53,897 nt of DNA, from IMG/VR virus record IMGVR_UViG_3300013094_000063, positions 1 to 53,897 of that record. One strand, given 5' to 3'. Source of the stretch: a virus. Each line of letters starts with the position of its first letter. Position 1 is the stretch's first letter. Both the position numbers and the translations under genes were made by a program. Below, piece by piece: positions 2,041 through 49,890 of the stretch. The notes beneath the pieces are model-generated. The model was not told where the DNA came from. It did no database searches and worked only from the letters and a program-made list of their open reading frames with translations.

Positions 2041-2916
2041 ATGTCAAAATTACATTATACAGAATTATTTTATAGCATACAGGGAGAGGGAAGATATATG
2101 GGAGTCCCAAGTGTCTTCTTGCGTACATTTGGTTGTAATTTCCGTTGCAAGAATTTTGGAAGATATGAAAAAGATATTCTCGGGGTTGATGAAACCCATA
2201 ATCCAGAAGTTGTTGAGTTTATTAAAAATATCGATCAATATAAAACATTCGGTGATTTACCGTTAGCTAAAACCGGATGTGACAGTTATAGTTCTATCTA
2301 TCCAGAATTTAAGAAATTTGTTATTAAAGAAAATTCTAACGAACTAGTAGCTCGAATCATGGAGATCCTGCCATTAGGTCATTGGAGTCAAGAGCATTTG
2401 GTCATAACAGGCGGTGAACCCCTACTAGGTTGGCAACGTGCTTATCCAGATTTACTAGATCATCCAGACATGCAGGATCTCAAAGAGATCACATTTGAAA
2501 CAAATGGTACCCAAAAACTAACTCCAGAATTCAAAGAAGCATTGAGCAAATGGAGGATTTCTAATCATCGGTTGAATAGAGAAATTACATTCAGTGTAAG
2601 TGCCAAACTTCCTTGCAGTGGTGAGAAGTGGGAAGATGCTATCAGACCAGATGTGGTATGTGATTACGAACAGTACGGTACAGCGTATCTCAAATTCGTA
2701 GTGGCTACAGAAGAAGATATCGCAGATGCCGAACGTGCTATAGACGAATTCCAACAGGCAGGATTCTCAGGACAGATTTACCTGATGCCGGTAGGAGGTG
2801 TAGAGAGCGTATATGCCTTAAATAATAAAGCAGTGGCCATGGCGGCTATGAAGCGTGGATTGAGATACAGTGATCGACTTCAAGTTCCCTTGTTCCGCAA
2901 CGCATGGGGAACGTAA
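2041..2916 (+). CDS. queE: QueE-like radical SAM enzyme (7-carboxy-7-deazaguanine synthase)
   Basis: 291 residues. QueE converts carboxy-tetrahydropterin to 7-carboxy-7-deazaguanine in the queuosine/7-deazaguanine route; phages use such genes for tRNA or for modified guanines in their DNA. Seen: YSIQGEGRYMGVPSVFLR (11-28), typical of QueE substrate/SAM binding; GCNFRCKNFG (31-40) with C32 and C36; TGCDSY with C80; VITGGEPLLG (about 121-130), the GGE SAM motif; and ETNG. The canonical third Cys (CX3CX2C) is Phe39; C80 is the likely replacement ligand. Translation probably uses AAAAGGAT just before the ATG, inside the end of the HNH gene. No other queuosine gene is in the window, so the product's fate (DNA or tRNA) is unknown. 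Confidence 0.85.
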   Translation: MSKLHYTELFYSIQGEGRYMGVPSVFLRTFGCNFRCKNFGRYEKDILGVDETHNPEVVEFIKNIDQYKTFGDLPLAKTGCDSYSSIYPEFKKFVIKENSNELVARIMEILPLGHWSQEHLVITGGEPLLGWQRAYPDLLDHPDMQDLKEITFETNGTQKLTPEFKEALSKWRISNHRLNREITFSVSAKLPCSGEKWEDAIRPDVVCDYEQYGTAYLKFVVATEEDIADAERAIDEFQQAGFSGQIYLMPVGGVESVYALNNKAVAMAAMKRGLRYSDRLQVPLFRNAWGT

Positions 2917-2924
2917 TTAAAATA

Positions 2925-2970
2925 CCCCATTTATTTGTAAATAGTATAAATACTTTATAAACAAATGGGG
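2925..2970 (+). promoter_or_regulatory. Ribosome-binding-site masking hairpin
   Basis: Left arm CCCCATTTATTTGTAAA (2925-2941) pairs with right arm TTTATAAACAAATGGGG (2954-2970): 15 Watson-Crick pairs, one G-U and one A-C mismatch, with a 12-nt loop. The outer CCCC pairs with GGGG 2967-2970, which is the ribosome binding site (GGGGAAG) of the ATG at 2975. In read-through RNA the site would be masked. The loop contains the late promoter octamer. Confidence 0.75.
2945..2952 (+). promoter_or_regulatory. T4-type late promoter (TATAAATA)
   Basis: A perfect TATAAATA in the loop of the 2925-2970 hairpin. By the T4 rule the transcript starts near 2958, within the right arm, so late RNA lacks the left arm and exposes GGGGAAG in front of ATG 2975. 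The window's own gp55 (48982-49890) is the expected sigma factor. Confidence 0.75.
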
Positions 2971-2974
2971 AAGT

Positions 2975-6090: not shown

Positions 6091-6098
6091 GATAAATA
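6091..6098 (+). promoter_or_regulatory. Candidate late promoter (GATAAATA)
   Basis: GATAAATA lies in the short gap after the 73-aa gene. A start near 6104 would give a 23-nt leader to GTG 6127, containing AAGAGAG. One mismatch to the T4 octamer. Confidence 0.45.
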
Positions 6099-6126
6099 TA
6101 TACGTACATTTAAGAGAGCGTATATC

Positions 6127-6853: not shown

Positions 6854-7936
6854 ATGGCAGAAAAGATCAGTAGCAATCGTACAGTCACTCCAAACGAAGC
6901 CAAACGCAGTATCCGTAAATGTATCAAGGTACAGCGTCCTGTATTCATGTGGGGTCCTCCAGGTATCGGTAAAAGCGATATCGTTAAACAGATTGGCGAA
7001 GAACAAAATCGTGAAGTAATCGATGTACGTTTAAGTCTTTGGGAACCTACAGACATCAAAGGTATTCCCTATTACAACAGTAATTCAAATACTATGACAT
7101 GGGCACCTCCAGCAGAACTGCCTACTGATCCAAATTCTACTGCTATCTTATTCCTTGATGAGTTGAACTCAGCGGCTCCTGCTACACAGGCGGCGGCTTT
7201 CCAGTTGGTATTGAATCGCCGTGTTGGTACTTATGTGCTTCCAAAAGGTGTGTCAATCGTTGCCGCGGGTAATAGAGAAGCTGACAAAGGTGTTACATAT
7301 CGTATGCCAAGTCCGTTGGCCAATCGTTTCGTACACGTCGAATTGAAAAGTGATTACGAAGATTGGTTAGAGTGGGCCGTCAATAACAAGGTGCATGAGC
7401 AGGTCGTAGGTTATATTGGTTTCGCCAAAAACGACTTATATGATTTCGATCCAAAATCTAGTTCACGTGCTTTTGCCACTCCACGTTCATGGTCATTCGT
7501 AAGTGAATTGCTCAAAGATGATGACTTAGACGAAGGTACGCTGACTGATTTAGTAGCAGGTTCCGTTGGTGAAGGGCTGGCTGTGAAGTTTATGGCACAC
7601 CGCAAGGTAGCTAAACAGATGCCTAAGCCAGAAGACATCCTGTCAGGTAAAGTGGCCAAATGCGATATCAAAGAGATCTCCGCTATGTATTCGTTGACTG
7701 TGAGTATGTGTTATGAGCTCCAGACAGCTAATCAGAAAAAGGTCAAGAACTGGGATGGTATGGCAGATAACTTCTTCCAGTTTATGATGGATAATTTTCC
7801 GACTGAATTGGTAGTGATGGGAGCGAAAGTGGCTCTCACATCCTATCAGTTACCGTTCGATGCCAGCAAGTTAAAGAACTTCGATCGTTTCCATCAGCAG
7901 TATGGAAAATACATCATACAGGCGATGGAAAATTAA
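6854..7936 (+). CDS. MoxR-type AAA+ ATPase
   Basis: 360 residues. MoxR-family ATPases remodel or activate partner proteins, nearly always together with a VWA-domain protein. Walker A GPPGIGKSD is near residue 35, Walker B AILFLDELN near 98-105, the sensor-like region IVAAGNREAD near 138, and an arginine-finger-type segment PLANRFVHVEL near 155. The C-terminal 180 residues are helical and less recognisable. The likely partner is the metallopeptidase/VWA protein at 10504-11757. It has its own sigma70-like promoter and a strong terminator straight after the stop, so it is a one-gene unit. The shared class of promoter with the VWA gene suggests joint expression. Confidence 0.88.
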   Translation: MAEKISSNRTVTPNEAKRSIRKCIKVQRPVFMWGPPGIGKSDIVKQIGEEQNREVIDVRLSLWEPTDIKGIPYYNSNSNTMTWAPPAELPTDPNSTAILFLDELNSAAPATQAAAFQLVLNRRVGTYVLPKGVSIVAAGNREADKGVTYRMPSPLANRFVHVELKSDYEDWLEWAVNNKVHEQVVGYIGFAKNDLYDFDPKSSSRAFATPRSWSFVSELLKDDDLDEGTLTDLVAGSVGEGLAVKFMAHRKVAKQMPKPEDILSGKVAKCDIKEISAMYSLTVSMCYELQTANQKKVKNWDGMADNFFQFMMDNFPTELVVMGAKVALTSYQLPFDASKLKNFDRFHQQYGKYIIQAMEN

Positions 7937-8583
7937 ATAGAGCCCGAAAGGGCTCTTTTGTTTTCCCAATATAATCGTCTTTTCTCTGCCATCTTTGCCC
8001 GGGTCTCGGGGCTTTGAACTCTTCCACGCAAACCTGCAGATATTTTAGCTCGTGTTTCGTCCGATGATTTAGTACCAGACCTTATTTGGGACATAAGTTT
8101 TTTTTGAGCCTCAAACATAGGCTTGCCCTTATTGTGAGCTGGTTGTCCTTTTCTAGCCGCTGATATATTTCGCTTGCCTTGTTCAGAATGCGGTTTTTTC
8201 TTTTTACCTGTTTGAGCTAAAGATACATTCCTCCTATGCTCCTCAGTCAGATGATCCTTGGTAACAAAATATTTCCCGCCAATATTTTCATTAAACCAAT
8301 GTTCGTTATTAACTACATCCAATCTCTTCAATACACGATGTTCCCACTCTATAGCAGATGCCTTGTCACTAAATGTCTTTCGGATCTCGAATATGAAACT
8401 GTCGACCCCATGTTCTGTTATCAATCTTTTGATCTTTTTAGATGATGTGAAATAGTTGGTCCAGAGTTCTCCAGGATGGCATCCTCGGCGAGTTCGAACT
8501 CCGTAGTAGTGTTGCCCTGTGAGCTTAAATGTAATACGATAGGTAAATGGTGTATAAATATTATCCACGCTGTAACTCCTCAT
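7933..8583 (-). CDS. GIY-YIG homing endonuclease with NUMOD3 repeats
   Basis: 216 residues on the minus strand, opposed to its neighbours. The N-terminal nuclease domain holds FTYRITFKLTGQHYYGVRTRRG (about 13-34), the GIY-YIG signature in variant form (YRI...YYGV-x-R), and a later acidic IEWEHRVLKRL. From about residue 110 come short Lys/Gly-rich DNA-binding repeats of NUMOD3 type (GKKKKPHSEQGKRNISAARKG, in pieces; GTKSSDETRAKISAGLRG; QSPETRAKMAEKRR). The start uses ATG 8583 with AGGAG 10 nt upstream; a GTG six codons on (8568) with GAGGAG before it is possible. The stop overlaps the MoxR stop by three bases, and the last codons contain the terminator hairpin. A late promoter precedes it. Confidence 0.85.
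   Translation of the reverse strand: MRSYSVDNIYTPFTYRITFKLTGQHYYGVRTRRGCHPGELWTNYFTSSKKIKRLITEHGVDSFIFEIRKTFSDKASAIEWEHRVLKRLDVVNNEHWFNENIGGKYFVTKDHLTEEHRRNVSLAQTGKKKKPHSEQGKRNISAARKGQPAHNKGKPMFEAQKKLMSQIRSGTKSSDETRAKISAGLRGRVQSPETRAKMAEKRRLYWENKRALSGSI
7939..7964 (+). terminator. Intrinsic terminator after the MoxR gene
   Basis: AGAGCCC (7939-7945), GAAA loop, GGGCTCT (7950-7956), then TTTGTTTT. Seven perfect pairs with a GNRA tetraloop and a T-run. It starts 3 nt after the MoxR stop and lies entirely within the last codons of the minus-strand endonuclease gene. Confidence 0.9.
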
Positions 8584-10503: not shown

Positions 10504-11757
10504 ATGTCGTCAGTGATGAAAGCAGAGAAAACAGCTAAACCTAAAAAAACTCGTGAGTTTACTGCTGTTGAAAAGAACAAGATCGTAGAAAAACTAGTCA
10601 CTGCTCGTGTAGGCCTACTACTGCGACATCCATTCTTCGGCAATCTGGCTACTCGTTTAGAATTAGTTGATGCTAGTGATTGGTGCTCAACATTGGCTAC
10701 AGATGGTCGTAAATTTTATTACTCAAATGAATTTGTCAACAAGCTGACTCCAAAACAGGCAGAGTTTGGATTCGCACACGAAGTGCTACATAATGTATTC
10801 GATCACATGGGACGCCGAGATGGCAGAGATCCAACATTGTCAAACATCGCCGCTGACTATGCGGCTAATCAGATCCTCAAAGATGAACGTATCGGTGAAG
10901 TTCCCGAGTTTATCAAGATCTTCCAAGATAACAAATACCGTGGTTGGAGTTATGAGCAGATCTATAACGAGCTTTATGATAAAGCAGAGAAGATCGACAT
11001 CAGTGAGTTAGGTGAACTCTTAGACGAACATCTAGATGGTGAAGGTGATGAAGATGGGGATGGAGAAGGTGACGGCAAAGATGGCACAGGTCGTCCTAGA
11101 CTCTCCGCAGAAGAAAAGAAAAAGATACGCGATGAGATCAAAGAAGCCATGGTAGCCGCGGCACAGGCCGCAGGTGCCGGACGTATTCCAGCAGGTGTAG
11201 CACGCATGATCAGTGATTTCACAGAACCAAAGATGGATTGGCGTCAACTGTTACGTATGAGCATACAGAGCATCCTAAAGAGCAACTTCAGCTTCAGCCG
11301 TCCAAACCGTAAATCACAACACTCAGGTGCTGTGTTGCCAGGTATGATGAATGAAGAAACTATCGATGTATCTATCGCTATCGACATGTCAGGCAGTATC
11401 AGCGATAAACAGGCCAAAGACTTCTTATCAGAAGTCAAAGGCATTATGGACGAATATGTAGACTTCAAGTTAGATATCTGGTGCTTTGATACCCAGGTAT
11501 ACAATTATGCCAAATTCACCGGTGACACCGCTGATGAGATCATGAGCTATGAGGTCAAAGGCGGCGGCGGTACTGACTTCGATGTCAATTGGAAGTTTAT
11601 GCAAGATGAAGACATCGTTCCTAAGAAGTTTATCATGTTTACAGACGGATATCCCTGCGGTAGTTGGGGTGATGAGGACTACTGCGATACCCTGTTTATC
11701 ATACATGGCGACGAAACCATAAATGCGCCATTTGGCCAGACCGCTCATTATAAATAA
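10504..11757 (+). CDS. Metallopeptidase-like/VWA-domain protein, likely MoxR partner
   Basis: 417 residues. The N-terminal domain (about 20-180) carries FGFAHEVLHNVFDHMGRRDGRD: HEVLH near residue 92 is a zinc-peptidase HExxH motif, with AADYAANQIL downstream as in the DUF2201-type putative peptidase domain. A very acidic linker follows (DGEGDEDGDGEGDGKDG, about 180-197), then a Lys/Glu helix. The C-terminal domain (about 275-417) is VWA-like: IAIDMSGSIS (DxSxS metal site near 294), GGGGTDF and MFTDGYP. Such VWA proteins work with MoxR ATPases in assembling or activating complexes. The MoxR gene lies 2.6 kb upstream. Whether the peptidase site is active, and what the target is, cannot be told here. 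Confidence 0.85.
   Translation: MSSVMKAEKTAKPKKTREFTAVEKNKIVEKLVTARVGLLLRHPFFGNLATRLELVDASDWCSTLATDGRKFYYSNEFVNKLTPKQAEFGFAHEVLHNVFDHMGRRDGRDPTLSNIAADYAANQILKDERIGEVPEFIKIFQDNKYRGWSYEQIYNELYDKAEKIDISELGELLDEHLDGEGDEDGDGEGDGKDGTGRPRLSAEEKKKIRDEIKEAMVAAAQAAGAGRIPAGVARMISDFTEPKMDWRQLLRMSIQSILKSNFSFSRPNRKSQHSGAVLPGMMNEETIDVSIAIDMSGSISDKQAKDFLSEVKGIMDEYVDFKLDIWCFDTQVYNYAKFTGDTADEIMSYEVKGGGGTDFDVNWKFMQDEDIVPKKFIMFTDGYPCGSWGDEDYCDTLFIIHGDETINAPFGQTAHYK
11749..11756 (+). promoter_or_regulatory. Possible late promoter (TATAAATA)
   Basis: A perfect octamer at the very end of the VWA gene, where it also encodes Tyr-Lys-stop. RNA would start near 11762, 7 nt before ATG 11769. It may read the three following genes, but coding constraint could produce the motif by chance. 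Confidence 0.4.
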
Positions 11758-11768
11758 GTGAGTATATA

Positions 11769-20983: not shown

Positions 20984-20991
20984 TATTTATA
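20984..20991 (-). promoter_or_regulatory. T4-type late promoter (TATAAATA, minus strand)
   Basis: The plus strand reads TATTTATA, a perfect late octamer. RNA start near 20978 gives a 15-nt leader to ATG 20963 that contains AGGA. It would serve the distal fibre genes. Confidence 0.65.
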
Positions 20992-41936: not shown

Positions 41937-42410
41937 TTAACCTGGTGTATAATTACTACCGGTCACTGGAGTTTGTGATACTGAAAGGCCAATATTTTGA
42001 TCAAAGGTAAGTCTTAGATTGGAAGACTGGTCAGAGTTTACCAACTGTAGAGTTAATTCTAATAGATATCCCTGTTCATATTCTGTAATATCTATCTGTA
42101 AGGGAGTTACTCGAGGATCGCTGGTACATATCGAGGTTATGTCTTCTGACAATACCTGTCTAACATCTTCAGTCAATGGCTCCATCAAGAGGTCCCATAT
42201 GACACTACCGTAGGTGGGATTCATCAATCGCTCACCTCGACGAGTATTAAAATTATTGATTATATCCTGTTTGATGAGGTCAAAATCATAGAGACTAGAA
42301 TTCTTATTGCTATTATCGACACTGCTGAATCCTTTATAGAAATGGTCAGTTTTGACCGCAACCTCGTTGATGGCATTGGGTATATTAAGTTCGATATTTT
42401 TATATGGCAT
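41937..42410 (-). CDS. 25: Baseplate wedge protein gp25-like (GPW/gp25 family)
   Basis: 157 residues. gp25 is the sheath-initiating core wedge protein of contractile tails. Seen: YDFDLIKQDIINNFNTRRGERLMNPTYGSVIWDLLMEPL in order (about 42-82), which is the family core (RxGER-x-N-P-x-G-x-x), followed by VRQVLSEDITSI and a strand pair ITEYEQGYLLELTLQLV. Slightly longer than T4 gp25 (132 aa). Located between gp5 and gp6, as expected of a baseplate block. There is no ribosome binding site before ATG; AATAAATA at 42415-42422 is too close to act as a normal promoter. Confidence 0.92.
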   Translation of the reverse strand: MPYKNIELNIPNAINEVAVKTDHFYKGFSSVDNSNKNSSLYDFDLIKQDIINNFNTRRGERLMNPTYGSVIWDLLMEPLTEDVRQVLSEDITSICTSDPRVTPLQIDITEYEQGYLLELTLQLVNSDQSSNLRLTFDQNIGLSVSQTPVTGSNYTPG

Positions 42411-48981: not shown

Positions 48982-49890
48982 ATGACAGCTCTTCCAATTT
49001 CAACAAGAAAAGTAAAATACCTCAATAATAGAGACCTCCTAGCAGAAATACATCGTAGCAAATGCTCATATTCCAGTTTTACCAAAGCCGAATACAGCCA
49101 GCACGATATCATCCTGACTAGTCTTGATAAGGTCAATATCCGCACCATAGCAGATGCCAAGCGTGCCCGTGCCAAACGCATAGGTCTACAGGCATTCGCC
49201 CAGGCTCGTGCCAGCGGAGACAAAAAGATCAAATTGGCAGAATGTACTCCTGCTTACCAAACCATACCAAAGACAGACATCGTGATTCGCATCATGACCT
49301 TCGATCACATACCCCTGGCACCGGGTCGCAAGAAAACCACCAAGACTCGTGCTGACAGCCACGACAAGGTCAACTTTCCTCCATTCCAACACTGGAAATT
49401 CAATGATGCAGACGAACTGATCTGTGTAGGCAAGAGCCACTGGCGGGGTGGAATGAAGACCGGCAAGTTCAGCAAGGATCACGGTCGTATTACAGAAAAT
49501 CTAGGCAAGATGTTTATCAAACTCAGCGAACGCTATGCCCAAAGATCCAACTGGCGTGGTTATACCTACATCGATGAAATGCGTGGACAGGCCATACTAC
49601 AGTTGAGCCAGATTGGTCTACAGTTTGATGAATCAAAATCAGAGAATCCATTTGCCTACTATACCGCCGCAGTGACTAACTCATTCACTCGCATATTGAA
49701 TCTGGAAAAGAAAAACCAGAATATCCGAGATGACATGCTGGAAGAACACGGGCTGACTCCTAGTATGACTCGACAGCATTCACAAGAGTACGCTGACGAA
49801 ATAGCTCGACAGGCCACGCTATATAAAAATATGCGTATGCCAAAGAGTGAAGACGATCTTTCGGATGATGTTGAAGAAACATCAGCTTGA
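48982..49890 (+). CDS. 55: Late sigma factor gp55-like, 302 aa
   Basis: gp55 redirects host RNA polymerase to TATAAATA late promoters. The C-terminal ~150 residues fit: GRITENLGKMFIKLSERYAQ, NWRGYTYIDEMRGQAILQL, NPFAYYTAAVTNSFTRILNLEKKNQNIRDDML (sigma region 2-like, about 165-260), then a short acidic tail. T4 gp55 has 185 residues; here about 110 extra N-terminal residues are basic with helical pieces (RDLLAEIHRSKCSYSSF; ADAKRARAKRIGLQAFAQARA), which may bind DNA or polymerase. It faces away from the late virion block across a 114-bp divergent promoter region. Confidence 0.88.
   Translation: MTALPISTRKVKYLNNRDLLAEIHRSKCSYSSFTKAEYSQHDIILTSLDKVNIRTIADAKRARAKRIGLQAFAQARASGDKKIKLAECTPAYQTIPKTDIVIRIMTFDHIPLAPGRKKTTKTRADSHDKVNFPPFQHWKFNDADELICVGKSHWRGGMKTGKFSKDHGRITENLGKMFIKLSERYAQRSNWRGYTYIDEMRGQAILQLSQIGLQFDESKSENPFAYYTAAVTNSFTRILNLEKKNQNIRDDMLEEHGLTPSMTRQHSQEYADEIARQATLYKNMRMPKSEDDLSDDVEETSA

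Follow-up and report, generated by a model that had tools for sequence, protein, structure and literature searches.

RNA structures that cover the ribosome binding site, together with promoters in suitable positions, are reported for the T4 homing endonucleases I-TevI, I-TevII, I-TevIII and SegB and for MobE of phage Aeh1 (PMC2988022). Inhibitory RNA structures have also been described for the T4 genes e, soc and 49, and the hairpin of gene e is reported to block early translation (PMC3014915). When the T4 DNA was folded, the late promoter core of I-TevI and segB fell within the left arm of the hairpin, whereas that of gene e lay at the loop.

A leader of this kind was analysed in the window, i.e. 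the whole stretch of 53,897 nucleotides of the virus record IMGVR_UViG_3300013094_000063. As for I-TevI and SegB, the downstream gene encodes a homing endonuclease, its ribosome binding site is masked by a hairpin in upstream transcripts and a candidate late promoter lies within that hairpin. The T4 promoter core in the left arm differs from the loop position in the window, and the enzymes also differ, GIY-YIG in the case of I-TevI and SegB and Vsr/EDxHD-like in the window. Their locations are different too: I-TevI resides in the td intron and the free-standing SegB among tRNA genes, whereas the window gene follows queE. The T4 lysozyme gene e agrees in promoter position: its leader has a masking hairpin, and a late promoter sits at the hairpin loop, TACCTTCTA TAAATACT TAGGAGGTA. 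In contrast to the window gene, it is a lysis gene rather than a mobile element, and it has two late promoters. The sequence-only reading of this locus had claimed that the promoter is placed even more economically than in T4, which had to be abandoned in view of gene e. Aeh1 mobE, compared by description only, differs in encoding an HNH enzyme within an Aeromonas phage reductase gene. Since the T4 precedents share both mask and promoter, the window element is not a new principle, but it is new on a different enzyme. The principle is already known from I-TevI, SegB and gene e, and the instance in the window is unusually well supported.

Hairpin, promoter motif and endonuclease

Table 1. Features of the locus and of related leaders in the window
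Feature	Position	Strand	Remarks
queE-like gene	2041-2916	+	endonuclease insert directly 3' of gene
queE tail RNAWGT*	2896-2916	+	recoded relative to NEWGT* in insert-less loci; homing target (probable), resistant form
Left arm CCCCATTTATTTGTAAA	2925-2941	+	pairs with 2954-2970; supported by covariation
Apical loop TAGTATAAATAC, 12 nt	2942-2953	+	from the sequence and homologous leaders
TATAAATA, candidate late promoter in loop	2945-2952	+	motif counts, virion-gene enrichment
Right arm TTTATAAACAAATGGGG	2954-2970	+	includes Shine-Dalgarno GGGG 2967-2970
Free-standing homing endonuclease, 251 aa	2975-3730	+	Cys/His-rich zinc-finger-like N-terminal part, Vsr/EDxHD-like C-terminal nuclease domain
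Second late-promoter/hairpin leader	TAAATA 6093-6098; arms 6098-6107, 6116-6125	+	before GTG 6127, 99-aa gene
Weaker third instance, short hairpin with TATAAATA 11749-11756	11743-11768	+	before ATG 11769
gp55-like late sigma factor gene	48982-49890	+	phrog_12791, E 7e-85

The sequence-only reading had described a stem of 17 positions (15 Watson-Crick pairs, one G-U and one A-C), a 12-nt loop carrying TATAAATA and a masked GGGG. A pair-by-pair reading confirmed each pair, and the description proved exact. The GGGG closing the right arm is placed four bases 5' of the ATG at 2975-2977. The fold comparison that had been proposed was also positive: RNA 2915-2990 folded with -16.8 kcal/mol (z = -3.64), as good as in none of 200 shuffles, whereas an RNA starting at 2958 gave -2.4 kcal/mol and was free of local structure. 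The window hairpin matched no curated covariance model in Rfam, and a search of IMG/VR for exact copies of left arm plus loop from the window returned zero matches.

In the window alone, TATAAATA occurs at chance frequency (5 found, 5.85 expected), and these window-only counts were excluded from the evidence. The reading of the loop motif as a promoter is backed by the late sigma factor gene of the window, which is also present in the records of four relatives, and by the hexamers preceding virion genes. An unbiased test over four genomes ranked TAAATA as the most strongly enriched hexamer in the 60 bases preceding virion-strand start codons; on the other strand, mostly Shine-Dalgarno-like words headed the list. 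TAAATA was found before 20 of 51 virion-strand ORFs against 0.86 expected (p = 1.5e-22). Late motifs published for related phages agree with this, ATAAATA in jumbo phage CBB (PMC5259590) and NATAAATA in cyanophage S-PM2 (PMC2984593). By analogy with the T4 spacing, a late RNA is predicted to start at about 2958, inside the right arm. In read-through RNA, opening the ribosome binding site costs a median of 12.8 kcal/mol; for the predicted late RNA the median is 2.2 kcal/mol. Two leaders (L010 and L012) have the motif so near the start codon that a late RNA, as predicted, would have its 5' end within the Shine-Dalgarno region. Several virion genes display TAAATA only 2-7 bases before ATG, mostly without a Shine-Dalgarno-like word (window 20984-20991 and 41937-42410 (-), with orthologues in G003, G005 and G011), an arrangement which would give leaderless late mRNAs.

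The predicted structure of the endonuclease reached a pLDDT of 87.5, with a whole-model pTM of only 0.43. The C-terminal domain is modelled in the order helix-strand-strand-strand-helix-strand, and its best solved match was Vsr of E. coli (1vsr, probability 1.00, E 4e-3), so that the model predicts a Vsr-like/PD-(D/E)XK catalytic fold. E163, D187 and H205 were invariant across 32 sequences, while the last D of the E, D, H, D set was not assigned. A search of the PDB by sequence gave nothing relevant to the endonuclease. In its C-terminal fold and invariant residues the protein resembles the EDxHD (I-Bth0305I type) and Vsr enzymes, and it differs from them by a Cys/His-rich N-terminal part with no relevant sequence match among solved structures. 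The assignment to the EDxHD family, made from the letters alone, gains from the Vsr-like predicted fold and the three invariant residues; no solved EDxHD structure was matched, and the label is therefore plausible and fitting but not proven.

Conservation in homologous leaders

Homologues were collected by protein search (13 loci) and by an alignment-based search (67 loci). A start-proximal stem with a score of at least 26 and enclosing TAAATA, used as a fixed criterion, was present in 38 of 41 distinct endonuclease leaders and in one of 938 control ORFs (Fisher p ~1e-63, a value that overstates independence and is not literal, since the leaders are related by descent). The sole qualifying control ORF encodes an HNH homing endonuclease (L093). 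The proteins behind the 41 leaders are 38-82% identical, and nearly all leaders folded into a hairpin covering the ribosome binding site, even at 38% protein identity. When the criterion was reduced to TAAATA lying within the best stem, 41 out of 42 homologous leaders qualified. Two leaders (L066 and L070) have only weaker stems near the start, and in L068 the loop is inverted, so that the promoter motif points away. The segments L064:331-420 and L068:968-1057 are identical in their flanks and in their outer arms; between these arms, the portion that includes the late motif is inverted in L068. This is either a natural inversion between the arms, turning the promoter away, or an assembly fault.

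A MAFFT alignment of the leaders (A1) was dropped, as divergent leaders were misaligned, and was replaced by a covariance model (R1) built from 15 leaders. R1 aligned 38 distinct plus-strand leaders, in which 13 pairs were scored. It was observed that 90% of the cells were paired, compared with 75% in shuffles. The sequence-only reading had pointed to compensatory changes in both arms of homologues as a check, and the outcome was strongly positive, with 69 double-change cells vs 20 in shuffles. None of 500 shuffles reached these values, and changes on both sides were present in 10 of the 13 pairs. The R1 alignment is fitted to the structure and hence favours pairing; model-free ungapped stems agree with it. 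In these stems, G-U combinations outnumbered A-C (54 vs 21, binomial p = 1.8e-4). Since G-U is tolerated in sense-strand RNA and is not expected in a DNA palindrome, this excess points to selection of the hairpin as sense-strand RNA. Covariation is a stronger argument than the Fisher count for a hairpin that did not arise by chance: the TATAAATA counts in the window alone are insignificant, and it is because the homologues carry the hairpin that chance can be set aside. When eight related records were scanned with the covariance model, endonuclease leaders alone scored well. Among cultured phages, a nucleotide search gave no match, and a protein search gave one distant homologue, in Salicola phage SCTP-2, with a leader that is not comparable.

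The queE site and similar leaders elsewhere

In every carrier with a readable upstream gene, the insert lies directly after queE. The window endonuclease gene is on the same strand as queE, directly downstream of it and upstream of a 5'-3' exonuclease gene. Among 80 queE loci lacking the endonuclease, a full hairpin was absent throughout, and at most of these loci the stop codon of queE overlaps or abuts the gene that follows. One empty locus (L103) has retained a left arm together with the beginning of the loop and nothing more, apparently as a remnant. Occupied and empty alleles of one site were thus seen, with the probable target altered in carriers. The tail NEWGT* was found in 73 of the 80 empty loci, and Glu before Trp was retained in only 2 of 39 carriers (p = 3e-21), where Ala, Gly, Arg and others replace it; the two sets differ in queE divergence, and part of this contrast could be ancestry. 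Because the tail is recoded in carriers, the 3' end of queE is the probable target of the nuclease, and from these alleles the carriers probably hold a resistant version.

The right arm resembles the 3' end of queE in insert-less loci (median PWM -2.5 vs -17.4 in controls, p ~2e-19), a similarity that is partly the Shine-Dalgarno TGGGG itself. The likeness is to the unrecoded tail, e.g. AATGAATGGGGAACTAATATG in L006, and may represent either an insertion relic or an I-TevI-like operator. At 2134-2160 the QueE-like protein of the window reads GCNFRCKNFG, at a place where a third cysteine is usual in radical-SAM QueE proteins.

Similar leaders were detected before other genes. For a gene of ~95 aa with an MSRPKP start (GTG 6127 in the window), 49 of 53 loci have a hairpin close to the start; its left arm occurs in 38 different versions, and TAAATA is nearly always located at this arm or just before it. 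In the cultured phages PA5oct, Phosso, Atu_ph07 and SCTP-2 this gene has TAAATA upstream, and a clear hairpin with TAAATA is present only in Atu_ph07. A 98-aa gene with an NPLG..GLR motif carries TAAATA in the loop of a start-adjacent hairpin in two of three loci (the third window instance and L021:455-480). In an unrelated HNH endonuclease family (L197-L201), a loop-promoter hairpin with differing arms stands before the start at ~1498-1501 in all five loci. Judged from the sequences, the hairpin/late-promoter layout is common to unrelated genes of these phages.

Two other endonuclease genes of the window were noted. An HNH endonuclease gene at 1252-2040 has a leader (1168-1250) strongly conserved in five loci, with a possible three-way junction GGGCGAACGGACTGATC(C/A)TCCTTCTGTGCCAGTAACGCAGATAGCCC and TAAATA just upstream. 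Its loop CCAGTAA is complementary to TTACTGG beside the Shine-Dalgarno sequence, which makes the leader a candidate pseudoknot masking the start of a second endonuclease. It had no match in Rfam, and plain folding gave no unusual stability for the window copy. At 7933-8583 (-), on the virion strand, a SegE-like GIY-YIG endonuclease with NUMOD3 is encoded, with TATAAATA ~45 bases before its start; relatives of this endonuclease were sought and none was found.

Expression model and alternative explanations

The element is very probably a switch that restricts a free-standing homing endonuclease to late expression, by means of a hairpin mask and a promoter in its loop. RNA reading through from the side of queE, which is assumed, would carry both arms and fold, hiding the ribosome binding site, and the nuclease would not be produced early. 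In the late phase of infection, transcription by means of the phage late sigma factor would start from TATAAATA, and the resulting RNA, without the left arm, would allow the endonuclease to be translated. Such late translation would coincide with many genome copies and with recombination functions. Computation shows the hairpin, its selection as sense-strand RNA, the masking, the late-promoter motif and the fixed site of the insert after queE; from these we infer the RNA start, the timing and the cutting of the queE 3' end.

Long near-perfect stems can suit RNase III, and many leader stems are of this type, with 17-26 positions. Cutting of the stem by RNase III or another nuclease could therefore open the hairpin, TATAAATA being incidental. 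Several stems have just 12-15 positions, however, TAAATA was kept inside the hairpin in nearly all leaders despite diverging arms, and the same hexamer marks virion genes, all of which makes this explanation highly improbable. The palindrome might instead act as DNA, with the endonuclease itself binding it as an operator or as a second recognition site and the RNA hairpin being a by-product. The likeness of the right arm to the queE 3' end of insert-less loci would fit, as the I-TevI operator is similar to its homing site (PMC2988022). Against it stand the excess of G-U over A-C, which DNA pairing would not favour, the contribution of TGGGG to that likeness, and arms that diverge between homologues while pairing is retained; a role as DNA alone is thus highly improbable.

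A stable hairpin immediately after a gene could also terminate or attenuate transcription where queE ends. The loop holds a constant element, however, and in homologues the arms follow the ribosome binding site, and so this function is hardly credible. An intrinsic terminator was rejected, since there is no T run 3' of the stem and the right arm is directly followed by AAGT and the start codon. As a speculative extension of the switch, which we consider rather doubtful, the 46-bp element would unite three controls: the RNA mask, the loop promoter for late transcription and a right arm retained as an imperfect copy of the homing site in queE. By binding to this copy, the endonuclease would repress its own late promoter, and unrelated endonuclease families of these phages would have converged on this compact layout.

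For the probable late-only switch of the window endonuclease the comparative evidence is deep: with ~40 covarying leaders, it supports the view that this RNA logic confines selfish endonucleases to late expression beyond the T-even phages as well, here on a different enzyme fold. A switch of similar design is used by an unrelated HNH family of these phages and by one of their genes that does not encode an endonuclease. The comparison also yields a concrete prediction of the cleavage target, placed at the last codons of queE, and further switches of this kind can be sought with the covariance model.
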